DNA from: Parelaphostrongylus tenuis
Taxonomy: Eukaryota; Nematoda; Chromadorea; Rhabditida; Metastrongylidae
DNA length: 64,000 bases
Direction of reading: 5' to 3'
Assembly (NCBI GenBank): GCA_019055375.1
Contig: JAHQIW010001271.1
Coordinates: 62,001 to 126,000, forward strand
Under the pieces are notes generated by a model. It ran no database searches. It saw only the letters and a program-made list of their open reading frames with translations, and was not told the DNA's origin. This document shows positions 1 through 63,110 of this stretch, piece after piece; within the stretch, counting starts at the first letter, position 1, and each line of letters begins with the position of its first letter. The position numbers and the translations under genes were made by a program.

Positions 1-1095
1 CCGCTCTGTCTCACTTTCATCGATCTGAAGAAAGCCTTTGATTCAGTGGAGAAAGAATCGGTTATAGAGGCTCTGGATAACCAGGGCGTCCCCACTCGGT
101 ACATAATGATCCTTTGTGAGCTATATAAATCACGATCAAAATTTCTCCATTCTACAACAATATCACCACCGACGTAAGAAGAGCGGTTTGACAAGGCGAT
201 ACAATTTCGCAGAATTTGATCACTACCACCCTCCAGAACACGCGAACATCAGAATGGGAGGAAATGGGAGTGAAAATTGACGGTCGACAATTAAACCATC
301 TTCGCTTTGCTGACGATATCTTCTCATAACACCAAACATCAGCCAAGCGGAACGAATGCTGACCGATTTCGATAGCGCCTGTGGAAAGATTGGTCTTCAA
401 CTCTAATGCCCCATTCACGCTCAACGGAACGACAATCTCCGAATGCTCCAGTCACGTCTATCTAGGTCGTGAAATTAACATGATGAACGACCTAGCTCCA
501 GAGTTGTGCAGGGGGAAACGAGCGGCTTGGGGAACGTTTGAGATCATCGAAGATGTAGTGAAGAGGACAAAGAACATCCGACTCCGTGCCCACCTTTTCG
601 ACTCGACAATTATCCCTGACCTAACGTATGCAGCAGAAACCTGGTCGCTATGTAAGCAGGATGAAAGATCACTTGCCGTTATCGAACGAGCAGTCGAAAG
701 GTCGATGCTAGGAGTATCCCGTATCTCGCAAATGAGAGAAAGGATCCAAAGTTCCGACCTACGTCAACGATCGAAAATCAGAGACGCCGTTCTACACGCC
801 AGGATATTGAAAATTAGGTGGGCCGGACACATGATGCGCTTCAACGACAACCGATGGACGAGAGCCGTTACCGACTGGATTCCTCGGGACGTCAAGCGCT
901 CTAAAGGAATACCACTGACCCGTTGGTCCGATTTCTTCACGAAAGCGATAGAAGAAAGATATGATGCTCAGCGAATCCCTAGAGCGAGGAGGACCCACTG
1001 GGCTACTCTTGCACGCGATAGTGAAAAATGGAAGAGTTGCTGGTACCCGCTCGAGTCACTCGACGATCAACGGGACGACAGGTGATACAGGTGAT
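1..1095 (+). mobile_element. RTE-type non-LTR retrotransposon, 3' part, decayed
   Basis: This is the 3' half of an endonuclease-reverse transcriptase element cut by the left edge. Frame 1 opens with the RT motif FIDLKKAFDSV (about 17-50). The FADD box appears as LRFADDI near 300-322, in a different frame, so at least one frameshift separates them. From 381 to 1085 an intact frame carries the C-terminal region of the RT: a VYLGR motif, AAETWSL, a LKIRWAGHMMRF block and a terminal DDQRDDR. These are typical of abundant nematode RTE copies. The 3' end shows short repeats (ACAGGTGAT twice) near 1078-1095, as RTE tails do. Earlier frames contain stops, so the copy is dead. The 3' 300 bp are closely repeated at 11094-11400 and, inverted, at 27410-27800. 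Confidence 0.88.
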
Positions 1096-10145: not shown

Positions 10146-13100
10146 TTACTTGCGCTGATGATCCTTGAGATGAAGTAGAAGGCTTTTTAGACGACTAACG
10201 TCTTTTCCACCTTTTGCCTGAGCTTTCGCCTCGCACAATCGAGCGATTTCGTCCCACTGAGCTCCTTCTCCTTGTTCACGACCAAAGGCAGCCAGATGTT
10301 CTTCTTCTGCTTTCCTAAATTTTAGTAACTGAAAAGAACTTAGCGTAAGAAAACAAGATTTATCGACAATACAACGAGTAGAACACTTTATCTCTTACAG
10401 TACCTTAATAGAGCCTTTGATGGAAAATCTATAATTGAAGTATTTTCGATCTTCCTCCTCCCCCACAGTTCAGAACAATCAAGAAAATTCGAGGAAACTC
10501 CATAAAGTACCTGTTCGCTTCCTTAGTTAGTTTCAATGCTGCATCACGCTGTTTATACCATTCCTCTAGCTCTTTCTTTGCCAAACTCCTAAGCTCATTC
10601 TTTCTCTTTTCTTCCGCTTCATCTATAACTACTCAATAACAAAAGAAAGCGATAATTGAACAATTATTTCCTAACTCAACAAATTCACCTAAAGACTCTC
10701 TAAGCCGTTCACCTGGACAGACTCACCAAAAATACTGACCTTTTTTCTCAAGGAGGATCTTCTGCTGCTCGCGCCACCTGCGTATATTCTCAGCTTCAAT
10801 GCGTGGTACAGAGGGAACCGGCGACGCTCCCTTCGAACTTGCCGCTGAGTTGTAACTGTTCACACCGTTTCCATTTACCAGTGGAACTATAAAAGTTTAA
10901 CTTTTTCATCCTTATCACTACCCTGTCTGAATTTCACCTGGAAAAGGCTTGCCAAGTATATGATCTATAGACACATGTTAGCTTAAGGTGCGCTTGTGCA
11001 GCCAAATAGTCCACAACACCAATTGATTCGTAGTGAGGATGTGAGTCATGATTGTATATGGCCGCTCATTATATATTAATTTTTCTTCATACACGTTCTA
11101 CACGCCAGGATATCGAAAATAAGGTGGGCCGGACACGTTATGCGCTTCAACGACAATCGATGGACGAGAGCCGTTACCGACGGATTCCTTGGGACATCAA
11201 GCGCTCTAAAGGAAAACTACTGACCCGTTGGTCCGATTTCTTCACGAAAGCGATGGAAGAAAGATATGATGCTCAGCGAATCCCTAAAGCGAAGAGGACC
11301 CACTGGACTACTCTTGCACGCGATAGGGAAAATGGAAGAGTTGCTGGTACCCACTCGAGCCACTCGACGATCAACGGGACGACAGGTGGTACAGGTTATC
11401 TTCACACGACTCGTCTTCACAATCTTTCTGGGCGAATCCCAAAGAAATCGATTCCTTTCTTCAAATTCATTATACACGAAGGCCCCCGAACACGCGTGCT
11501 GATACGACTGCTGCATGAGGATTTCGTCTTCCATACGCATGCCGTAGATGTTGCTCGATACAACTTTCCTTCCAGTCTTAAGGGTAATTCAGCCAATTCG
11601 GGTCGTTGACTGATTGCAAGAGAGTGTTTGGACGAACATTGAACTAAAGCCTTGTTTATCACATTGCTTCCTGACATATTCCACCAGTAGCAACTAAGCT
11701 ACCTCGCTCTCGAAACTTAAATCTCGACGCTGAAAATATTAAAACTTCCTGCGCTTTTCACAGCCTAAGTACTCAACTCTATATGTGTTGAGCTGGACAG
11801 TTTAAAGGTGGGGAAATATATGTACTTAGTACAAACTTTTTTGCTCCTTCCTATTTTGAATTTGCCACTATTCCCACGCCAATCATAGCCTTCTTCAGAT
11901 AGCATTAGCTATTGCAGCTGAGTGATTCCACAGTCACTTTCAAGTGCATTTTTTGTTCACCTTTGGTACCATGACGTCGAAGGTATACTTAATGATAGTA
12001 TGTGACAAATCAAGTTTTAGTTTTGAAGCGAAGATGATAACAAATCGGCCATTACACGTCACTCTGAGTAAAAACTAGGAAATGGTTCTAAACAGCGCTC
12101 TGTTTTATATCACTAAAATCTAATCAAAAGTCTGTGTACTGCGAAAGATTCAGAGAGACTTTGTTTGAACGAACTTGTAGTTAGCGCTTTGGATACTTAT
12201 AAGTGGTAGTACTAGGTCTTCCAAAAGACCATTCACGAATCGATGATAAACACATATTAGCACAACATGATGGCTAATCGTGATGAATCTCCAGCGGCCC
12301 ATTTCAATTCAGTGTCACTTCCCCCTCTGCACTAAGCCGTCTATTGCTTTAATGTGATGTTCTACAACATATTCCATCATATTTTATGCCGATTTAGTCG
12401 TGAAGGAAATTCTCAGGACGAATTAGCAAGAACTCTGTTGCAGTCAAGTCTAAATGTGTGATTACTGGTATTTTAATGGGAAAAACGGAGTGGTTAGTGA
12501 TATGCGCTCAGTCAGCAATGAACTGGTTCGAACCCTCCTTCATTGCGCTCCCAAGTAATGGCCCTTTGAGAAAAATCAACTCGACCACCATCCTATGACA
12601 TTTATTAACGGGTCAAAATTCTCAAGCATCAGTCAAAACACCATGGGAGATACGAAGACCTTTGCGACGAGTAACGATGTGTAATGTGAGTAAAAACGGA
12701 GTTCAAGAAGTGTTGGGAACCCCACAGTAGATGTGACGACGGATTACGTGAACAGATAATTGAATAAACCATTCCTGGCTATTTTCAACACTACTAAATA
12801 ATATCATATCTTGAGCTTTTCAATGAAGTCTGTTATGGCAGTTATATAGTGCTAGACACGTTTTTCGGCTTTACAGCCTCATCAGTACCACGGTGCCTTT
12901 CGAGTCAGCCAATTCCTTGCAGGAGAGGTATACTACTTCATACAAAAGAATCAACGTCGAATTATTTCGAAACACCGCATGTCAGGTGATAAAGTTCCCC
13001 TACATTGCAGTGACCAACAGCCGATCGCTCATGGCTGGTAAAATGAATTATATTTTTTTCATTCGAGTGTTTTTATAAACCTCGCTCAAAACTATATATG

Positions 13101-14943
13101 ATCTGATACCATCTCTTGAGCCTTTCATAAGATCTATTATGGCATTTATACAGTGATAAGGTTCTAGCGTATATTCCCTGCAAGGGATTGGCTGGACCGA
13201 AAGGCACCGTGTAACTGATGAGGCTGTGAGGCCGAGACACGTGTCAAGCACCGTATAAGTGCCATAACGGACCTCATGGTAGGCTCAAGATTGCTACCCG
13301 ATTATATATTATTTCCAACAAGGTCTATAAAAACTGTCTCGAATGAAAAGGTATGATTCATTTCACCAGTTATGAGCGATCAACAGTTGGTCGCTGCCAT
13401 GTCGGGGAATTTTATCACCTAATATGCGCGATTTGTTACGGCGTCGATTCCTACATGTAGGAGGTTTATCCCCCGCACGCGATTGGGTTAACCGAAAGGC
13501 ACCGCACTGCTGATGGGGCTGTAATGCCGAAATACGTGTCCGGCACTATATAAGTGTCATGACGGTCCTAATGAAAGGCTCAAGATATATTATAAGATTA
13601 TATAAATTGCCTTGAGCGAGGTCTATAAAAAACAATCGGATACAAGTGCACTACTAAGTTGGGAAGACGTGGGACGATGGACTTTTTCAGTGCAAAGAAT
13701 TCGACCCTAAGCATGGAATTTCGAAGGTCAGGCTCACGGAGATACATTGGGAAGTGTTATGCGAAGCTCGCTACAACCACTGAATGACTCAACTCTTAGC
13801 ACTGCTATATCATTCGGTCTACTCAAAATTTTGAGAGCGAGAGAGCATGAGCCTACCCAAATTATAAATCAAAGTACTTTATGAGAAGGTTTGAGCAAGA
13901 ATACACTACTGATAATCTCCACTATTCCCACCTGAAGGTGTTGCTTGATAGTCCATGGCCGTGAGGTCTACACCAGAATCTGCTCCAACGAGCGGAGGAC
14001 CGACTGCCATAGCGCCGAACTCGTCTGAAACTTCGAATATCAGGTCTGAAGACACGAATCTTCATAGTTCAGTGATTTTATTACTGAGCAGATGAGAGGT
14101 TGTTAGCAGCAGAACGTTCACATTCAGTAAATTCCACTGTTATTAACGCCACAGCCCTGTTCATCAAGAAAAACACCGAATTCTCTATACTATACAAAGA
14201 TCGATAGCTAATCGATCCAAAAAATCTCCATTATCTAACATCCTCATCCCATTTTAAACATTCAAAAGCTCTGCAGACAGTTCTTGTTTAGTTTTCGTTA
14301 ATTAAAGGGATTTTTTCCTTCATTCAGAAAAAAACCTCACATTTGCTGCATTAATCTGATACTCCAAGACTTTCTCAACACGCTCGTATATTCGAATATG
14401 AAACGTAATTTTCTTTTGCTCCTACAGCGCACTACAAAGACTTTATTCGAAAAGGAATTTAGCCTAGGAATCGCCAAGATTTGTGCTATCGAATGAGCAC
14501 TGGTATAGACAAATGCAAAATCATCCACAAACCCTAGCCATAAGAAAACAAAGCAAAGCAATCTCAAAGTGAAACATAATTTCATTTCAGTTACTACAGC
14601 TCACTAAGAGGGGTTTTTTTCTGGAACCATGCACAGCGTTAGAACTGCCGAGATTTGAGCCATCGAACGACGACTAAAAACTTAGTTTAAAAAAAAAGGT
14701 ATGTCTAACGATAAAGGCCACTAAAATTTCGTGCATGAAAAACGATGCACGCTATCCAGGAGGAGTTTAAACGAAAAAAAAAAATGAAAACTATGGTCAA
14801 TTACCTGCTGCTGCAGCTGCAGGTTGAGGTGGTGCTGCATTAGCTGCTAGAAGACCTCCTGCCGGTGCCCCAGTTGGAACGCCATCGATCTCAGCAAGTA
14901 GATCTTGTTCACGGGCAAGAAAATCGGCCACTGGGTCGGCCAT
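10146..14943 (-). CDS. clic-1: Clathrin light chain
   Basis: Five exons read 14943-14805, 14024-13932, 10886-10740, 10622-10511 and 10314-10146, all with GT/AG ends and agreeing phases, for 219 codons plus TAA. The protein starts MADPVADFLAREQDLLAEID, a typical light-chain N-terminus. A low-complexity AAAPP-like linker follows, then about residues 100-190 a charged helix including ENIRRWREQQKILLE and KKELEEWYKQRDAAL, the clathrin heavy-chain-binding region. The end is QWDEIARLC...KDVSRLKSLLLHLKDH, matching the conserved WxxxARLC...KDVSR-L block of the family. It binds the clathrin hub and regulates coat assembly in endocytosis. Length is normal. Exon 2 could start 21 bases earlier (14045) in frame. 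The ATG follows TTACAG by one base, so the mRNA is probably trans-spliced. The 3-kb third intron is full of repeats. The symbol is that of the C. elegans gene. Confidence 0.96.
11094..11400 (+). mobile_element. RTE 3' fragment in a clathrin light chain intron
   Basis: Repeats the last 300 bases of the element at the left edge: ARISKIRWAGHVMRFNDNRW-like coding, RWSDFFTKAMEERYDAQRI, then the GGTGGTACAGGTTATC tail. It has one frameshift near 11180, lies antisense in intron 3, and is 5' truncated as RTE insertions usually are. Confidence 0.85.
12484..12545 (+). repeat. tRNA-like sequence, SINE head or tRNA relic
   Basis: An A-box-like GAGTGGTTAGTGATATGCG is followed 25 bases later by GGTTCGAACCCTCC, a consensus B box. 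The stems do not pair well, so I read it as a SINE-derived head inside the clathrin light chain intron. Confidence 0.4.
12849..12892 (-). ncRNA. Hammerhead ribozyme-like motif, type A
   Basis: On the minus strand: CTGATGA at 12885-12879, stem II GGC/GCC around TGTAAA, then GAAA starting at 12866, stem III AACGTGT, and the GTC triplet at 12857-12855. All invariant core bases of a hammerhead are present. Helix I closes with only two sure pairs (TA/TA), so this copy may be weak. Confidence 0.62.
13203..13252 (+). ncRNA. Hammerhead ribozyme-like motif, type A, core mutated
   Basis: CTGATGA at 13215-13221, stem II GGC/GCC, then GAGA instead of GAAA at 13234-13237, stem III ACACGTGT and GTC at 13243-13245. 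The A-to-G change in the second core strand should abolish cleavage. Confidence 0.55.
13497..13546 (+). ncRNA. Hammerhead ribozyme-like motif, type A, core mutated
   Basis: CTGATGG at 13510-13516 (last A of CTGATGA changed to G), stem II GGC/GCC, GAAA at 13529-13532, stem III ATACGTGT and GTC at 13538-13540, followed by CGGCAC. It is the right-arm partner of the 12849-12892 motif. Confidence 0.55.
14337..14600. repeat. DR-Y dispersed repeat copy
   Basis: Shares CTACAGCGC..CTACA..GAC, GAATTTAGCCT and ACAAACCCTAGCC words, in the same order, with parts of 19940-20180, 49400-49530, 57700-57870 and 61260-61420. It lies in the first intron of the clathrin light chain gene. Ends are not sharply defined. 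Confidence 0.4.
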
Positions 14944-18289: not shown

Positions 18290-18400
18290 TTGTTGGGATG
18301 AGCCGTAAGGCACGTGCTACTGATGAGGAGTGCGGGTAACACTGAAACGTACGTATACCATTTGAAATGCCATACCAGATCCTTGAAAGGCTCGGAAGAG
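18290..18400 (+). repeat. Half copy of the hammerhead-bearing repeat
   Basis: Right half only: GATGAGCCGTAAGGCAC, core, then TGCCATACCAGATCC and TTGAAAGGCTC, as at 13203-13295. It is followed within 20 bases by a SINE-A. Confidence 0.65.
18311..18360 (+). ncRNA. Hammerhead ribozyme-like motif, type A
   Basis: CTGATGA at 18320-18326, stem II AGTG/CACT around CGGGTAA, GAAA at 18344-18347, self-complementary stem III ACGTACGT, then GTA as cleavage triplet and TACC. Core bases are intact. Helix I pairs TA/TA, with a C-C mismatch at the third position. Confidence 0.6.
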
Positions 18401-28300: not shown

Positions 28301-31300
28301 TCAGGCGGTGAACGCTTCCTCTTTGATAAGATTGAAAGCAATCCTTGATGATCCGCGTGCGATTTGGACTCGTCGCGAGCGAAAGTCATCGCAGACAAAA
28401 ATTGTCATTCCGGATGAAGACATCATCGAGAACAGTTGCCCATCAACGCCCTCACAAGGCAGTACACGGCCGAAATCCCAGTCTACCACTGAGTCGTCGT
28501 TCAAACACTGAAAATTTTGCATTAGCTGAGAAAACGATCATCTATTTGTTGCTGCGTGGCTGTTTACACAAAAAATTCAGAAATATAGAGTCAATATTTA
28601 GCCTTCCGATGGAGAGAAAGTGAAGGATGGAAAACACAGTAATAAGCAGTATATAAACAAGTGGTTTCTGGTTTGATCACGACCTTCGGGATAGCTTAGT
28701 AATCACCATGGGGTCGATAGATCTCATGAGATCGAAAAAAATGTCTGCACATTGAAAAGCTAAATTTGGGTTCAATCAAAGCTTAGAGGTGCTCTGCAGC
28801 GCGCACAAAGTCAATGATTCGATCTGTTATTCATTCACCAAGCCTTTTATCTTTCTTTAATTGCTTAATTGGTACCAGACTTGTTTGGGAAGATAAGAAG
28901 CACTGACCTGAAGCATTGGTAGGCCACCGAAAGTCATTGTAGGGCTCAGATATGCAATCAACCACCTTAAGCAAGGCCAAAAAATGGAAAGACATGAATG
29001 CATGGTTCAACCTCAACCATTGATCAACGCCAAAAGCTAATCCTTCCCCTTATGGAAATCTTTATGCGGATGCTTCACCTCGATATTACGTGAAGAACTT
29101 ACTTTAATCATGTCAAAAATGCCCTGTAGTGTGATGCTGGTGACGCAACTGTAGAGTGCAATAGTAGTGGGCGGTGATGCGGCCCAATTCTGTAGTGTTG
29201 CATTCGTCAGTTGATGGAGGAAGACGTTTGATCGAGGCTGAACCCGTAAACTTTGCAGACATACGATCGCTCCCAGCACCTGAATATGAATTCTTTGAAG
29301 AAGAGCTTATTTGGAAAGTTTTTTTTTTACTATACTAAGCTGTGCTAAAACGAATAAATCAATTCTCCAATTCTCTAAGGAATCGTAAACAAAGTCAAAA
29401 AGATCCAAATAAAGAGGATGAAATAAGTACTACTTCTTATCAGTTTTGTGTATATTTCAATCAACTTTTTCACCGTAATCAAAGTACGCCATCTGAAGTG
29501 CTTTTTTAATTTGTAGTCTTCTTAAACCTTTCCTACGCTACTGATAAGCACAAGTGGCCATTATTAGTCAGCTACACTCCTCCAGTTGTGATTAGAGCAA
29601 CATCTTACTCATTTATCTTTAGTTTTACCACTTATGATTAATAGGGAGCGCATGTAGTTCAGTGGTATGAGGTGCCTTGAAATACGCATACGGTCCTTAG
29701 TTCGATGCCATGTACAGATCCACAACATTTCATCCCTGCGGCGTCGAGCAATTGCTAAAGGACATGTCTGGATTGATGGCATTCATATATCGATAAGTAA
29801 CTGCCAGCCCTTCTAAAGGCTAGATACACTCGAAAACTTCTTTAGAAGCTCAATGATCGAATGTATGATACATCTATCAAGGAGTGTCAAATGCCGAGCG
29901 CTCTGCACTTTATGATACAGTAGAAGTGAATAGCAAAGCCATTCAGTCTATGCATTATAGGCTAACTCGACGCTGCCCCACCTTAAATTCTCGAGCACAA
30001 TGCTTTCGAAGCTCAGACTTCATCGACATCCAGCCCAAAATTCGTACTTGATATCTTTGGTGTAGAAAAAAACCGGTCTGTCAGAGTCCCTCATCAGTCT
30101 GTCTTGTGATGCCGATTTTTCGTCGGCTGTCGCGCATGCCAGAGATGTGTGATAGTTTGTCGTACGGCCAACCTGACACATATGATGTGTTTTCGTAGTG
30201 ACAAGCCCTTGACAGCCGACCATCAGAACGCCATCAATCCCGTTGAATTGTGATGCACTCAGTCATATCAACAGATAGGCACGAAATTTTCTAGAGAGTT
30301 AATAAAAGAGCTTCTGTGTGATTCATGGATTCGAATATGCTACCGATACAAAGTATTCCATATTCAATGTGGAGGCCTAACAAGAGTCGCTTTTCAATTT
30401 TAGCTTTTTGTGCTTTTTCTTTTACTCAAGGAACCATTAAAACTTCGGAAAGAAAGGGTTTATGTAAAACCGAAGGTGTCGAAGCGACTAATCAAATTTG
30501 AGGTATCTTCTTAGTTTAACAATGAAACCCATTTATTGCGCTAAAAATTAGATGGTTTGCCTCTCATATATTACACTGAGAATATAACCTCTAACACTCG
30601 CAGCGCAATAGGTTCCAGTTTAGTAGCCATTTCTAACTTTCTTGGAGCCTTGCGGATTCAATTTGACTCAGATCGATGCAGTTGATGAGAATATGGTTAC
30701 TCGCTTGAAGCTTCAAACCGATTAGTAATAGATATATCCATCGAAGTCAAATGCTCGAAGGTTCGAATCTCTTTGAGGTACGAAGACCTATACATCCCCT
30801 CTAATTGACTGGCTGGATAGGTGGCTGTAGTGACTGAATGACCTCTTGAAGTCATCATTATGCGTGGCACATTCCATTCAATCACTGTGTAGATGATTTG
30901 AAACCCAACTATCCTTTAACTTCGGCATTACCGACTAATCACATATTCCTTTCAATTAAGTGAAACAGCACAAAGTTGATAAACTCATCCATTGCGCTCA
31001 CTACACACTTATACTGCCCGCTGTAGGATCAATTGTCCGCCGAAGAACAAAATTTTATCAGCGGGCAGACAATATCATCAACAATCATCCTGGACTAGAA
31101 GAACACTGCCAGGTGAGGTGCTCTTTAAGCATTGCTTCGCCGAAAAAGATTTAATTCGAACGATAGCGAAGGCGAAGATCACAACGAGCACGAAAGGTTG
31201 TGGGCCATTAACTCGGATCAAGTCGGCTCCGAAGATGACGAAGCGAGTCGAAACGTCAGCGGATTGAAAAGTGTTGTCAGATTAAATTGCCTTTGAGCGA

Positions 31301-33670
31301 GGTCTCCAATGAGTCGATTGAAAGAGCGTGATCCTTTCACCGTACGAGTGTAAAAAGTTCGTTTTTGATTCATCTGTACAGGGGTATGTTCCCGAGGAAC
31401 TGACTGAACGAAAAGGCACCGCATAGTGAGGAGGCTAAAAGGTGAAACACGTGCCTAGCATCTCATAAGTGCCATAACACACCTTATGAAAGGCTCAAAA
31501 TGTGTTATCAGATTCTATTGTTCTTAAGTAAGGTCTCCAAAGAATCGATTGGAAGGTTTTATCGAATAAAAAAGTTTTTTTTGGAATTGACTTTGTGCTT
31601 TTCGCTTAATCAAGAACTAATCTGTAATCAACTTCTTCATAAACTGAAAAAAAGCTAGTTAGTGACCCACAGCGGGACACACCTTTACGAAATGGACATT
31701 CTCAACAAACTGTAAGCACCTGAAAGGTGATCAAAGACCAACGTGGGTCCCGTATGTTTGTGTTCTAATTTTTTGCCTAAGGAGATAGATGTATAGCAGA
31801 AGGTTTTGATGATTATTAAGAAAGCTGCAGTAAACATTCGGATTTGCTAGTTTTACAACAAATTATTCAGCGAAAGCCTCTAGAGCTATATGAATAGATA
31901 GAAATGGTCGATGGCTACTGTATATCCCGACTTCTACCCACATAACGTTGCTATTGATCCTCATCGGAATGGCTTTACTTCAGTTCCGAGAAAAAAATTA
32001 GTTCCGAATGATTAGAAATTAGCTTATCCGAATCAGTATACAAACATATTTATTTCATTCGGCACTCGAAATTATATAAGTTTTACCTTGTCGCTAACGA
32101 TGTCATGTTCAAAGTGACAGAAATCAAGGGTGAGGGAATGACAGGCGGTCCGTGTCAACAACGATAACATCTGCTCTTCAGAAAATTTTAGGCGACATAA
32201 CGTAAACGACAAGTTGCGAACACATCTGAACAAATGTTTTACATCCTCCACGTTTACAAAACACCAAGAAAAATTGACCGTATATTCAATTCTTTTAATA
32301 GAACTTTGAATACTGGAAAAGGTCACATGATTATCATTCAAGAACTTCGTAGAAGCGAATTGTATCGATATCCAGAGTGATAAATAATTAGAAAACATAC
32401 AAATCTGAAGAAATTTGGAAAAAGATCGGAAGAATCATTAAAATCTTTTGAAACGTGAGTTGTCAGCACTGGATACAAAGCACTCCACAAACCTTAAGTC
32501 ATTCCATTTTGCTGTTAGCATGTTGTAAAATTCGGTGTCGGCTGTCACGCCATCGAATGAAAGCCGATCAAGCAGGAATACCTGAAGAAGTCCTCTATTT
32601 TTCGGCTTCTGAATAGAGAGAAGACAGGAGTTCACCAAATTAGATCCGACCAGTTTCGCAGCTATGAGTAAACCTATACTCTGGTAGAGCTTTACGAGTT
32701 GATATGACAATGTGCTCCTCAATAAAGGGGTAAGAAATAAAAGGCATTAGATCTTGAAAAAGGTAAAGCGGTTCGTGTACTTCTAAAGAGCTTCTTAGGA
32801 TGAGCACAGCGTATAAGGTGAAGATTTTGCTTAGTGTTTATAGCCTTACTGATACAGGTGTAATTGGCACCCTATGATCTCGCGCAAATTTCTGAAGAAT
32901 TGTTTACAATTGAATGATTACTACGAACCTTTTTCATCTCTTCACCAACGAGATTGATTCCGTAATTGCTGGGTCCTTCGATTCCTTCTTCGACCACATG
33001 TCTGCTTTTATTCTTTCGCTTTATAGTCACTACTATTCGTCGGTGAAGTTTTCCGGACGGGTTTATCGGTTGAAGTTTGCCAATTGGACGCGTTCTTCCT
33101 ACGAATGATCGCATTTCGACACTGCAAATAAGTTGATTTGCATTTCTAAACAGAGGACGAAATTCCAGTATCACAACATGGAGATAAAAAATTTTTGAGA
33201 TACAGTTTTTCGGGTATCAATGTCAAGGGTTCAGAATTCATCTTTATGAAAGATCAACACAACTTTCGGAGTAGACATGAGGCAAAAGAGATATTATGCT
33301 GTTTGTCTTTGATGGAGTCGTCGAGTACAACTCTTTGAATCCCTGGAAATTATGATAGTAAAATTAGATGCTGGAATATTCTTCAAAAGATCGTCCCCCT
33401 TGATGAGCAACGTCGGATTAACTGAAGTACGTAAGAAGACATAAAATGTATCGATCCCTAAGCCTACTACTTCATCGGATGGTTACTGGTCTATGTCATA
33501 TATAAGTTCGAAAGGTACTTGAAATCGTCAACGCGAGGTTTTCCAAGATGATTACGTTCGACAATCCGATTCAGCTTCTTGTTTAGCCTTTTTGCTGCTA
33601 TCACCGTGCTTGGAGTGGTTAATCTGAGAACGTTCACTAGCACTTCTTCAGGAAGAAGTGACAAGTCCAT
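28301..33670 (-). CDS. F-box protein with LRR-like segments, model incomplete
   Basis: The first exon, 33670-33519, begins with ATG directly after TTTCAG and encodes MDLSLLPEEVLVNVLRLTTP, an F-box start, followed by AAKRLNKKLNRIVERNHLGK. Exon two, 33121-32929 (64 codons, phase 2 to 0), fits it exactly. Further exons: 32493 to about 32680 or 32715; 32404-32087 (FRCVRNLSFTLCRLKF, LRR-like); 30884-30701; 29279-29103 (ATTCAG| and |GTAAGT, 59 codons); and the last exon 28507-28301 (TTTTCAG|, 69 codons including TGA). The final two agree in phase. The joins around 32.4-32.9 kb and from 30.7 to 29.3 kb do not, so exons are missing, two genes are merged, or the gene is decaying. F-box proteins recruit substrates to SCF ubiquitin ligases. 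A SINE-A lies in the last intron. Confidence 0.6.
28780..29042 (+). repeat. SINE-A copy in an F-box intron
   Basis: TTAGAGGTGCTCTGC, a degraded B box (TGATTCGATCTG), GGTACCAGACTTGTTTGGG, and the tail TTGATCAACGCCAAAAGCT. It is antisense to the gene. Confidence 0.78.
29645..29720 (+). repeat. tRNA-like head, related to SINE-A
   Basis: GAGCGCATGTAGTTCAGTGGTATGAGG matches the SINE-A A-box region in two pieces, and TTAGTTCGATGCC is a B-box-like word 35 bases on. The SINE-A body does not follow. Confidence 0.5.
31225..31261 (+). ncRNA. Hammerhead-like motif, type B
   Basis: GGCT, CCGAAGA (one change from CTGAAGA), stem II GAC/GTC around GAAGCGA, GAAA at 31250-31253, CGTC and AGC. GCT/AGC forms helix I. 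Stem III is only ACGT. The downstream flank (CAGATTAAATTGCCTTTGAG then CGAGGTCT) is shared with the type A repeats at 13.6 kb. Confidence 0.5.
31395..31510 (+). repeat. Half copy of the hammerhead-bearing repeat, core decayed
   Basis: CTGAACGAAAAGGCACCGC, then GAGGAGGCTAAAAGGTGAAA, CACGTGCC, and TAAGTGCCATAACACACC with GAAAGGCTCAA. It matches the 13203-13295 order, but CTGATGA is replaced by TAGTGAGGA. Confidence 0.6.
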
Positions 33671-55010: not shown

Positions 55011-55024
55011 GAAACATTCATATA

Positions 55025-55400
55025 TGATGTGATAGCATGTTTTGAGCCATTCATAAGATCTGTAATGGCACTTATACAGTACAATACACGTGTTTTAGCC
55101 TTTCGGCCTCGTCAGTTGCACGGTGTCCTCCAGTTGAGTCAGTTCCGCGGAGAAACACTTCTTGAATATAGGAACCAGCGTCGAATATTTCACACGCACC
55201 GCTACGTAAAAAATCACTGAACGGGCTGGGCAGTGTCGCACACTCGATTGCTCTTGTTTTTTGAGATCTCGCTCATAACAATATGATAGCTAATAGCTGA
55301 TAGTGATTTTAGTTCCACTGAATAATTGTCATTACATATCTCATTAAAGGCTCAGAATAAGCCATCAGACTATATTATTTGAATGAGATCTCAAAAAATA
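55025..55400. repeat. Hammerhead-bearing repeat copy
   Basis: TTTTGAGCCATTCATAAGAT, TGTAATGGCACTTATACAGT, then the core on the minus strand. About 200 bases on, ATTACATATCTCATTAAAGG and GGCTCAGAATAAGCC close it in the opposite sense. The order matches the left half of the 13.1-kb element. Confidence 0.68.
55079..55121 (-). ncRNA. Hammerhead ribozyme-like motif, type A
   Basis: The minus strand has a perfect six-pair helix I (GTGCAA at 55121-55116 with TTGTAC at 55084-55079), CTGACGA at 55115-55109, stem II GGCC/GGCT around GAAA, stem III ACACGTGT, and GTA at 55087-55085. The second core strand reads AAAA instead of GAAA, so the ancestor was probably active but this copy is not. Confidence 0.62.
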
Positions 55401-56089
55401 TTCGAAACATTCACATACAGTCTTTAAGGAAATTTTTAGCGCTCTCGCGGTACCATTTCACCTATAACCCCTAATAGATTGTCGATTAATAGTGTAGTTC
55501 AGAAGTTGAGATCCCTATTCAAATGAAAAACAAACTTTGTTTTTCGTTTCATAAGCATTACTTCTATTATTTATTGATTGTGAAGTATGAATACATTTGA
55601 TGGTGGGAACGCAACACTAGTCATGTGCCCTGAGTTTAGGCCCTCTACGTATTTCCTCTCAGTTTGAAGCATTGAGGACGATTTTCTGAACCCTATCCAA
55701 TTTCAAACTCTCCAAATACTTTACGTGTCACCGTGCACTTGATTGTGGCCACTCAGCAGTAAGCCAGAGACCTTCTGGTCCCTCAACTACTTCCGTTGGC
55801 TATCCTTCTCCACTTACACTAATAAAAGTATTCCTTCTCCTGCTTGATATGTTCACTTTACCTTCGTGCAGCACTTTTTAGAAGAAATTTAGAGCTCTTA
55901 CTCTTTCCTGACATAGTGATAGTAAAAGGTTGATGGATAAAATTGCGTTTTAAGCATTGTTGGAATGTGCCATTTGATATTGGATATGTTCTCAAATAAA
56001 CGTGGTTATGCTATACACTAGTGACCATTTATCGTTCTGTTTTATTGCTATGAGGCACTGCTGGGTGTTTGTTTCATAATCATTTTAGA

Positions 56090-60194: not shown

Positions 60195-60400
60195 AAAACT
60201 TGGCAAGGATATTACATGTTTTAAACTGTTAGGTCTAGTGGTACACAAGCGCCTGTTTCGTCCTATCGGGACTCGTCAGTACCATCCTCACTCGGTTCAG
60301 CCAATCCCCTGAGGATAAATAATCCTCTATAAAAGAATCGAAGCCAAGTAATAGAAAAAAAACACCCCAAGTCAGATGATGTAGTTACGTGACATTGTAG
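60195..60400. repeat. Hammerhead-bearing repeat copy
   Basis: GTACCATCCTCACTCGGTTC and CAGCCAATCCCCTGAGGATA follow the core in the same order as GTACCACGGTGCC...CAGCCAATTCCTTGCAGGAG at 12.9 kb. Confidence 0.65.
60240..60283 (-). ncRNA. Hammerhead ribozyme-like motif, best conserved core
   Basis: On the minus strand: helix I GGTA (60283-60280) with TACC (60243-60240), CTGACGA at 60279-60273, stem II GTCC/GGAC around CGATA, GAAA at 60259-60256, stem III ACA/TGT around GGCGCT. The core strands are perfect and the stem II region resembles that of the Schistosoma satellite hammerhead. The cleavage position reads G rather than A, C or T, which should block cleavage at that site. Confidence 0.65.
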
Positions 60401-60404
60401 TACC

Positions 60405-63110
60405 GGCAATCGAGCACGTAGCTGTTATAATGAAATCCTATCATAAACTTGGGCTTTTTCGAGTAAAAGGATGTTCCTCTGATAGATTACAAAATAAATA
60501 GGTTCGTTTAAAGCAATTGACACTCCAAAATACTTAATCGAGGACTCCTTTACACCCGCAAAAAATTCAGAGCCTGTCAAAATTTCAATCAAAACAGCAT
60601 TAAAATCTTTGAAATAAGATTATCATTATCCACGATCTCTCACCAACAATCTTCAAACTCCAAAACAAACAACGACCTGAGAGGGTGCCTGTGCGATTAT
60701 CTTGAGATTTTTAAGAAAATGTCATTCGAAGTGCATTTATCATTTGCGAGGCGGGATGGAAAAGTCGGCTGATATCCAGTTAGTAATCGAATCAGCAAGT
60801 AACCTCAACCCTCTTATTGATGATGGCTGAGTGACAATAATACACATGAAGCAGTTACTAAGACCCAAGCGTCATATTGAGCCAAAATTCTAAGTATGCA
60901 ACTAGTTAAGTGTTGAGAGCTAATCCGACTGGGTATGATACTTGCGGAAATACTTTACTTTGACTAGGTTTCACATGACCCGACATATACTGCGTGGATC
61001 CCAGCACTTCCTAAACTCGAATATCTTCCTCGGATTGATCCTCCACAACATTCTTTGAAATTTACACGTGTTGCTCCAGTTACTGCTTTATGACTTAGTT
61101 CTTTTTTTAAAGACGATTCTGTGTACGATCTTGAGGAGAGTTTTGCTAAGGAGACATAACGTTAACCTTGCGGACGAGCGTTGGGAGGAGGCCGAACTTT
61201 GATTCCTTGTAGCACGAATCACAAATCCACTCCAATTTACTTTTACACCAGCCTAATACTACGGGTGTTAATCGTAATCTTCCTTTCACTCTTACAGCGC
61301 TCTATGGAGATCTTTTTAAAAGCCAATCTGGGCTTTACAGCTATCGCATAACTACCCAAAGTCTAGTGAAAAGCCCTTAACAAATCTCATTCGAGCAATG
61401 AAAGCAAGCCGATAATGACACATTCAATAAAAGAGCCACGAAAACACGTGAGTTTAGCTTAGAACACACGCCTTCTCCAACAGGTTAATGGTAACCAACT
61501 CCTGTGTAATCGGAAGGTGAGATACTGACCGGTTGCAGCTCATCATCCTATCTACTCGTACCTCCGTGAATATGTGTATAGTTATACCTTTTCGCGTTCC
61601 TGGCAAACATTGTTCTACTTGGGCCTATTTACGTCTCCAACGATGTTGAGCATAGATAGACGCCTGCGTTGTTCTGGGTAGGAGGAAAATTTGCTTGCCT
61701 GTGACTACAACAATTTAGTAATTCCTCTACTACCACTAAAACTCCCGATTAAGCAACCGGCAGAAAACGTGATACTGATATATTTGCTTGTAAGACAAAT
61801 GCAATACAATAGATTTTGGAACGATGAAATAAGACGATTTCAAACGCCTCACCAATTTAGCGTTGTGTCAAGGACGCCTTTTGAGATACTATTTAAGTAC
61901 ATCATGAAATGAAAAAGCCATACTCAGAGTGAACCTATTCGTCCAAGGCTTCAAAGATCGCTATAAAACGTTTTTGCATCAGTTACCATTTTTGTATTCG
62001 TAAGAGTATTTATTGCAAGCCATAATCATCTTGACATAAATATTCAGCGTTTAAGTGCCCGTCCCAAGTTGTGTTATGAGGTGCAATTACTACCCTGATG
62101 TCACCAGTGAGATTTCCTTTAGAGGGTTGCCGAATAGAAAGTTTGGGAAACATTACAACGGATCTTATGATTGGATAATTGACAAGAGAGTTTTATTCAA
62201 ATTTTGTCTTTTGCTCGAGAAGACACTAAGGAAGGGATTTGCTGCATATTATATTTATTCGAATAGAGAATACTGATTAAAAATTTCATGCAACAGTAAC
62301 TAATGCAATAGTCAAATTAGTACTAATCTATGCTTGAAAGTGACTGAAATGATAGAAAAGGTAAATGTTTTTTTTTGTGCTTTTACATATTGTGCCAATT
62401 CCAAAATCCATATCAGATAACTGCTCATTCATCATACACAAAGAGCTTCGGCCTTGCTTGTTGCCTCGGGAACTGCTTGAGGATTTCTGGCCTTGTTATG
62501 AATCTTGAATAATTCAACTGAATCTAGAATTATCTTTGGAATTACGGGCAGCCGTACAAGGTCATTCCTAAGGTCAATTTAATAGCCTATGCACTAATTT
62601 CCTCTCCAAAAATTTTAGCAAAAAAGGCAAAATTCTCACTGCTTGATATGTTGTATGTTTGGTTAGAAATTCTTCTTGAATCACAAGAAACTATGATAAA
62701 AGCTCAGGATGTGTGATGGAATAGTCATGGATTTTGTAAGCTAAAAGAAAAGTCGCTATTCTGTGACTATGCTTCTTCTAAGTGGCAGCGATCTTTAATG
62801 TTATGATCTGAGTGGACGGTTTTCAGATGGAAATTTCATAAAGGCAATCGGCTTCAATGGCTGTGAGTGCTTTATGTCGTGTTCGATAGCGACTCATGTC
62901 CACTTTGTGAAATGAAGAACAAGTGACAATATGAATCCAAATAAGATTTATGAAAGTCGTTAGAGAAGAATCAAATTTTCTTCCACTAATTTAGTCCGAG
63001 TTCTCAATGAAGACTTTGAAGAAAGTCGAATCTATTGTGCTCGCGATGATTGCGTCTCACCGTAATTCGCCCTCAATCTGATTTGAGTGTCTTCAACTCC
63101 GTGTTTATGG
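60405..63110. other. No gene seen; one DR-Y copy
   Basis: AT-rich. 61260-61420 is a DR-Y copy (CTCTTACAGCGCTCTATGGA, GATCTTTTTAAAAGCC). Open frames at 61691-61912 and 62055-62276 have no supporting splice sites. Confidence 0.35.

Follow-up and report, generated by a model that had tools for sequence, protein, structure and literature searches.

A hammerhead insertion of the nematode Parelaphostrongylus tenuis, very probably a retrozyme mobilised by Penelope-like elements

The systems closest to the one treated here are the Penelope-like elements (PLEs) and the animal retrozymes. The passages on rotifer PLEs in PMC3846280 describe inverted pseudo-long-terminal-repeats (pseudo-LTRs, pLTRs), a 31-bp tail which is optional on one inverted pLTR, and target duplications of 8, 9 and 10 bp. 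The Penelope protein of a lizard cuts and extends both target strands in vitro, and its reverse transcriptase (RT) uses two adjacent internal start sites which bound a tail of 30-40 bp; this signature was termed unique to PLEs, and insertion in vitro did not require hammerhead cutting (PMC11167929). Mobilisation of animal retrozymes by PLEs has been proposed as likely from co-occurrence in the relevant section of PMC7229834, and the corresponding part of PMC7761336 names PLEs/Terminons, also on co-occurrence, as 'likely candidates' for moving them. Here we analyse an insertion built of hammerhead units in the genome of Parelaphostrongylus tenuis. It lies in a stretch of 64,000 nucleotides of contig JAHQIW010001271.1 (positions 62,001 to 126,000), in the following called the window, and all positions without a locus name refer to it. 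We conclude that the insertion is very probably a retrozyme, a non-autonomous and non-coding element made of ~295-nt units with type-I hammerheads, mobilised in trans by a PLE protein of the same genome.

The insertion and its hammerheads

A preliminary description of the window had seen two inverted arms around a smaller inverted copy, each with a hammerhead-like core. The sequence 12798-13648 is one insertion, and an exact 9-bp target duplication, CACTACTAA, abuts both of its ends (Table 1). The building unit is ~295 nt long and carries one type-I hammerhead; direct copies in the insertion are spaced 295 nt. Against a unit consensus of 293 nt the two arms map head to head, with a gap of ~10 nt. 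The inverted arms of the preliminary description are real, 12823-12923 being 84% complementary to 13177-13277 over 101 nt, and other inverted stretches were found as well. The central copy, taken there for another inverted one, is instead the opening unit of the plus-arm tandem and lies head-to-tail with the right copy. With the ends set by the duplication, the minus arm stops 57 nt past its hammerhead cut and the plus arm 108 nt past the cut of its second hammerhead. The joined flanks of this insertion gave no empty-site match in the genome.

The genome assembly which was searched has 481.5 Mb in 5105 contigs. The loci were selected for resemblance to the window unit (L001-L020), for a hammerhead pattern (L021-L058) or for GIY-YIG (L059-L078), their ends playing no part in the choice, and the copies examined were the top-scored ones only. 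With up to one mismatch allowed, the pattern matched 507 cores in the genome, and its reversed form, used as control, matched 0. Among the loci there were 73 pattern matches, of which L002:2660 and L027:2468 were dropped as chance and the other 71 were aligned. The hammerhead structure pairs 87.8% of the cells in this alignment, which holds 126 double changes as compared to 51.1 +/- 9.7 in shuffled data and at most 27 with the pairing partners slid. Two weaker measures of covariation, the pairs with a double change and the further pair types, were not above the shuffles. There are two families with compensatory differences in stem I (GUGCUA/UAGCAC vs GCCCGA/UCGGGC) and stem II (GGC/GCC vs GAC/GUC). 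The covarying stems are strong support for the predicted RNA structure of the unit hammerhead.

All three cores of the insertion which the preliminary description had pointed out were found as type-I hammerheads with the covariance scores given in Table 1, scores obtained with a model built from 71 sequences to which these three (12825, 13195 and 13490) belonged. Rfam assigned two of them weakly to type III, with 19.6 and 19.2 bits against a threshold of 48.5, and single-sequence folding of the window copies gave neither a signal nor excess stability. The window copies have damaged cores or stems and are probably inactive; intact-looking unit cores exist elsewhere in the genome, e.g. in L042.

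Other hammerheads were seen as well. One type, GGTCA-CTGATGA...CCTCCGAAACAC..GTGTA-TG(A/G)CC, whose stem III is palindromic, occurs at L052:1092-1141(-), L056:9794-9844(+) and L074:2636-2682(+), and there are additional types, e.g. with cores ending CACCGGTGTA. Hammerhead-like cores with a stem III near ACAGGCGCCTGT (L042:644-728, L042:276-307 and 60237-60285 of the window) are perhaps a fourth hammerhead family.

Two end positions in units and in resident Penelope-like elements

The unit is non-coding and 293-298 nt long, which falls in the retrozyme range of ~170-400 nt. In the alignment of unit copies the outer ends lie mostly ~36-74 or ~88-119 nt past the hammerhead cut. To compare the arms of single insertions, we paired each minus arm among the covariance-model matches with a plus arm coming after it at a distance of up to 700 nt, which gave 27 pairs. 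L003, left out of the first reading of arm pairs, is included in this recount; L024-L030, which lie in the segmental copies of L051-L053 and L058 or on C2468, were not added. In 26 of the 27 pairs one arm ends less than 80 nt past the cut and the other more than 80 nt past it. Judged from the sequences, we hold this asymmetry to be the decisive evidence for what would be an integration of Penelope type.

PLEs are resident in the genome. A GIY-YIG search gave 150 scored matches from 1723 first-look candidates; three frames were scanned, two of which have RVT_1 together with GIY-YIG, the third being a shorter piece with GIY-YIG alone. A protein with both RT and GIY-YIG is thus encoded, in many such frames, and the best matches of the L077 Penelope frame, so far as they are named, come from strongylid nematodes. 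The preliminary description had supposed that the units are pseudo-LTRs which flank an RT gene. This is not supported by the 3' untranslated regions of the PLEs, where 18 of 20 loci carry by pattern (CTGAAGA...GAAACGTCAGC) a different, minimal hammerhead, typically CTGAAGAAGGCGAACTGCCGAAACGTCAGC; the remaining two have mutated minimal hammerheads as seen by eye. The minimal motif has 3012 exact matches in the genome and 0 in the control. On the contigs covered by a list of 100 of these 3012, seven of ten GIY-YIG places are followed on their own strand by a minimal hammerhead at a distance of 270-303 nt, and for three none is listed; at two of the seven a second one lies ~2.7 kb upstream, which is the pseudo-LTR arrangement. 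In the same list, neighbours within 6 kb were head-to-head in 17 cases, tail-to-tail in 0 and tandem in 5.

The plus arms of the PLEs end 56-75 nt past their own hammerhead cut in 11 of 18 loci and 101-119 nt past it in the other seven, with none between; L067 and L068, both among the 18, are 99% identical. Where the inverted arm could be mapped, in L071 and L075, it has the short end and the plus arm has the long one. Four matches were discarded in this mapping, three low-scoring ones and the inverted arm of L070. The two end positions which units and PLEs share are a more specific argument for mobilisation by PLEs than co-occurrence is.

Target duplications vary from 8 to 14 bp. They were tested in 20 insertions, with L003 and L070 left out: a direct-repeat score of at least 9 was reached by 4 of the 20 and by 0 of 380 mismatched pairings, a score of at least 8 by 5 of the 20 and by 1.05% of the mismatched pairings, and none of 2000 permutations attained the observed mean score. 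An earlier and looser test gave a mean of 6.4 vs 5.6 in mismatched pairings. Most of the 20 insertions have no clear duplication, which is in line with the age of the copies. Examples are AGAATAGT (L009), TTAAATCAAA (L019) and AATGATTG[T/C]ATGAT (L033). When the flanks were joined and used as query, 2 of 18 unit insertions gave a contiguous match over the joint, as of an empty site: L033 at three places (73-74% identity, 8-13 nt less than the query) and L036 at eight places (71-73% identity, 8-12 nt less). A shortfall of this size is what the absence of one duplication copy would give. The one PLE copy queried, L075, gave a contiguous match of 94%, and its duplication TATGTTTAGTGG was read by eye.

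Seven of 38 arm rows exceed one unit, and the template should therefore be multimeric or circular; no large multimers of the unit were seen among the 38 rows. The inner ends adjoin a GGGGGTATATCCCC hairpin in 13 of the 38 rows, some of which are the same arm; the hairpin lies at unit position ~200-225, 5' of the hammerhead, and is perhaps a stop or self-priming site for RT.

Proposed mobilisation and its alternatives

The model proposes that a multi-unit RNA, tandem or circular, would be made and would be able to cut itself at the hammerhead. The PLE protein would bind this RNA, and its GIY-YIG domain would cut both target strands in a staggered manner. For both strands RT would then begin inside the RNA, at two neighbouring sites which lie ~60 and ~108 nt past the hammerhead cut on its 3' side; the two complementary DNAs would join in head-to-head orientation, and the duplication of 8-14 bp would arise when the stagger is repaired. 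Protein binding, a circular RNA, self-cutting and any current activity of the units are what we infer. Tentatively we suggest in addition that the hammerhead fold may be a fixed landmark, so that on any RNA bearing one the PLE protein would start RT at two sites, ~60 and ~108 nt further downstream; the retrozymes might thus imitate the pseudo-LTR RNA of PLEs and be inserted with each of the two cut strands serving as primer. The Penelope-like nature put forward in the preliminary description is in this sense retained, given the RT/GIY-YIG frames in the genome, the head-to-head arms, the tail on one arm and the short variable duplication, and is given up as far as an autonomous element was meant.

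Several points weigh against this reading. The 80-nt threshold was picked after the data had been seen, and with the narrower bins used initially and one pair per locus 17 pairs are opposite, 1 is the same and 4 fall outside, or 14, 2 and 6 with strict scoring. Under the stricter scoring of all pairs 25 of 27 are asymmetric and L031 fails. The exception among the 26 of 27 is L047 1471/1559, where both ends are short; in the first L047 pair the plus arm aligns poorly, and the L003 pair is weak with one arm reading through (155 nt). The pairs of L051, L052, L053 and L058 look like repeated copies of a single segment, and counting them once leaves 23 of 24. Among the PLEs, L070 has an inverted arm that stops 20 nt past the cut. 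The tail homology between PLEs and units is weak, since shuffles do as well in 182 of 5000 cases for family A and 919 of 5000 for family B; recognition by the PLE protein may therefore rest on structure or short motifs. Of 38 rows, 2 have inner arm ends within 3 nt of the hammerhead cut, which amounts to no clustering there and gives no support to a self-cut RNA as template; this absence of clustering agrees with the dispensability of hammerhead cutting in vitro (PMC11167929). Finally, the unit copies are 78-93% identical to their consensus, i.e. old, whereas identities among the main PLE copies are mostly 86-99%.

Two of the loci just mentioned have a structure of their own. L047 has six hammerhead matches between 322 and 1889, from two families and in both orientations, the pair with two short ends included. 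L051-L053 and L058 (C2464 and C2467) are near-identical copies of unit-type hammerheads, ~30-50 kb apart on C2464, and apparently sit inside a larger segmental repeat.

The alternative which survives best, and which we still judge unlikely, is that an autonomous PLE family with this type of hammerhead has given rise to the units, as solo pseudo-LTRs or through internal deletion of its copies. The insertion signature is common to units and PLEs, 6 of 20 PLE loci have unit-type hammerheads within 1.5 kb of GIY-YIG, and a rarer family could escape a PLE sample made of top-scored copies. However, these hammerheads are not at the 3' end of the PLE, and their density is similar to that in the window, where five unit-type loci (one doubtful) occur in 64 kb. 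The PLEs have instead their minimal hammerhead ~270-300 nt past GIY-YIG in 18 of 20 loci, and the unit forms tandem repeats that are free of coding sequence. A retrozyme which is not autonomous and is moved in trans accounts better for the data than does a piece broken from an autonomous Penelope element. The nearness of unit hammerheads to PLE genes was considered as evidence and rejected, 6 of 20 loci being compared with the five (one doubtful) of the window alone.

Transport of the retrozyme by some other RT, e.g. that of an RTE-type long interspersed nuclear element, is very improbable. The window does hold an RT frame of this type, but the one-sided tail and the head-to-head arms are called specific for PLEs (PMC11167929) and are present in the PLEs of this genome. 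We give still less credit to a miniature inverted-repeat transposable element or foldback DNA transposon with arms that are merely hammerhead-like. Inverted arms and short target duplications would suit it, but it is contradicted by the asymmetric ends in 26 of 27 pairs, the duplication length which is not fixed (8 to 14 bp), the partial tandems and variable inner ends of the arms, and the strong covariation of the stems. The preliminary description had named target duplications of DNA-transposon kind with no link to RT as the result which would speak against a Penelope-like origin; the Penelope insertion signature is what was seen. A DNA transposon with terminal inverted repeats was rejected, as neither identical inverted ends nor a fixed-length duplication was found.

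Further features of the window and comparison with known systems

The features of the window are collected in Table 1. In the second insertion of retrozyme-like kind the local alignment of the minus arm extends beyond GAAACATTCA to 54990, which makes the left limit less sure, and its hammerhead has AAAA in place of the required core GAAA. At 31229-31300 a Penelope-type minimal hammerhead remnant lies immediately 5' of a retrozyme unit, an arrangement which is possibly a template-switch chimera or a nested insertion. Two Penelope proteins of the genome gave no match in the window, and no RT/GIY-YIG frame between pLTRs was found there. The exon at 10155-10322 was the sole match in the genome search with PF01086, and none was found beyond the far side of the insertion; as the exon is seen on one side only, the location in a clathrin light chain intron given by the preliminary description is unconfirmed.

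Table 1. Coordinates of features in the window, with strand and basis of assignment.
Feature	Position	Strand	Basis
Target-site duplication CACTACTAA, left copy	12789..12797	.	Exact repeat at element edge
Minus arm, ~1.2 units, without tail	12798..13158	-	Unit alignments, end class
Type-I hammerhead, damaged stem III (AAACGTGT)	12825-12905	-	Covariance model, 79.8 bits
Plus arm, ~1.6 units, partial tandem, with tail	13169..13648	+	Unit alignments, end class
Type-I hammerhead, GAGA core, stem I mismatches	13195-13275	+	Covariance model, 75.8 bits
Type-I hammerhead, core CTGATGG, stem changes	13490-13570	+	Covariance model, 70.9 bits
Tail, plus arm only, between the two end positions; left limit approximate	13604..13648	+	End mapping
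Target-site duplication CACTACTAA, right copy	13649..13657	.	Exact repeat at element edge
Second insertion of retrozyme-like kind	55011..55413	.	GAAACATTCA repeated exactly (10 bp), 55011-55020 / 55404-55413, enclosing 55021-55403
Hammerhead of second insertion	55055-55135	-	Covariance model, 77.7 bits, not in training set
Related unit with hammerhead 31407-31485	31381..31536	+	Covariance model, 35.4 bits, not in training set; unit match
Decayed related hammerhead (model match 18301-18383)	18296..18383	+	25.1 bits, not in training set; short unit match
Distant related copy, doubtful hammerhead 60237-60285	60237..60434	-	15 bits, E 0.14; unit match 68%
Penelope-type minimal hammerhead remnant (CCGAAGATGAC...GTCGAAACGTC)	31229..31257	+	Pattern scan
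Clathrin light chain exon, C-terminal part	10155..10322	-	PF01086 match, 36 bits, C980:72155-72322
RTE-type RT frame	363-1085		Frame in window; best match Parelaphostrongylus tenuis, 93%

The question of which element moves animal retrozymes has hitherto rested on co-occurrence, and an insertion signature shared within one genome makes it directly testable. The two-position ends also suggest which stretch of RNA is recognised by the PLE protein. The main text of the 2020 retrozyme paper (PMC7229834) does not name nematodes ('Nematod' has 0 occurrences), and neither a nematode retrozyme nor one with a PLE tail came up in titles and abstracts of the open-licence literature, although earlier reports are possible; the present case adds a nematode to the groups named in that main text.

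With the PLEs, as presented in the pertinent passages of PMC3846280 and in PMC11167929, the units have in common the head-to-head arms, the optional extension of one arm, the short duplication and a hammerhead 5' of two RT start positions. In these same passages the tail is 30-40 nt, as compared to ~45 nt here; the unit has no coding region, and its hammerhead differs from the minimal PLE form in having a stem III (ACACGTGT) and in the greater length of its stem I. The choice of RT start site did not differ between the two strands in vitro (PMC11167929), and here there is one site per arm. The animal non-LTR retrozymes, as characterised in the relevant parts of Cervera and de la Pena (2020, PMC7229834), likewise consist of ~170-400 nt non-coding tandem units with type-I hammerheads, and their host genomes also hold PLEs with minimal hammerheads; those retrozymes are described there as tandem repeats from dimers to large multimers, whereas the present ones are head-to-head two-arm insertions with a tail and a duplication. 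The Schistosoma W-elements with active hammerheads are, in the section of PMC8490949 devoted to them, satellite-like repeats of a helminth which have been suggested to be mobile; they are tandem satellites, and that section describes no two-arm insertion signature like the one found in P. tenuis.

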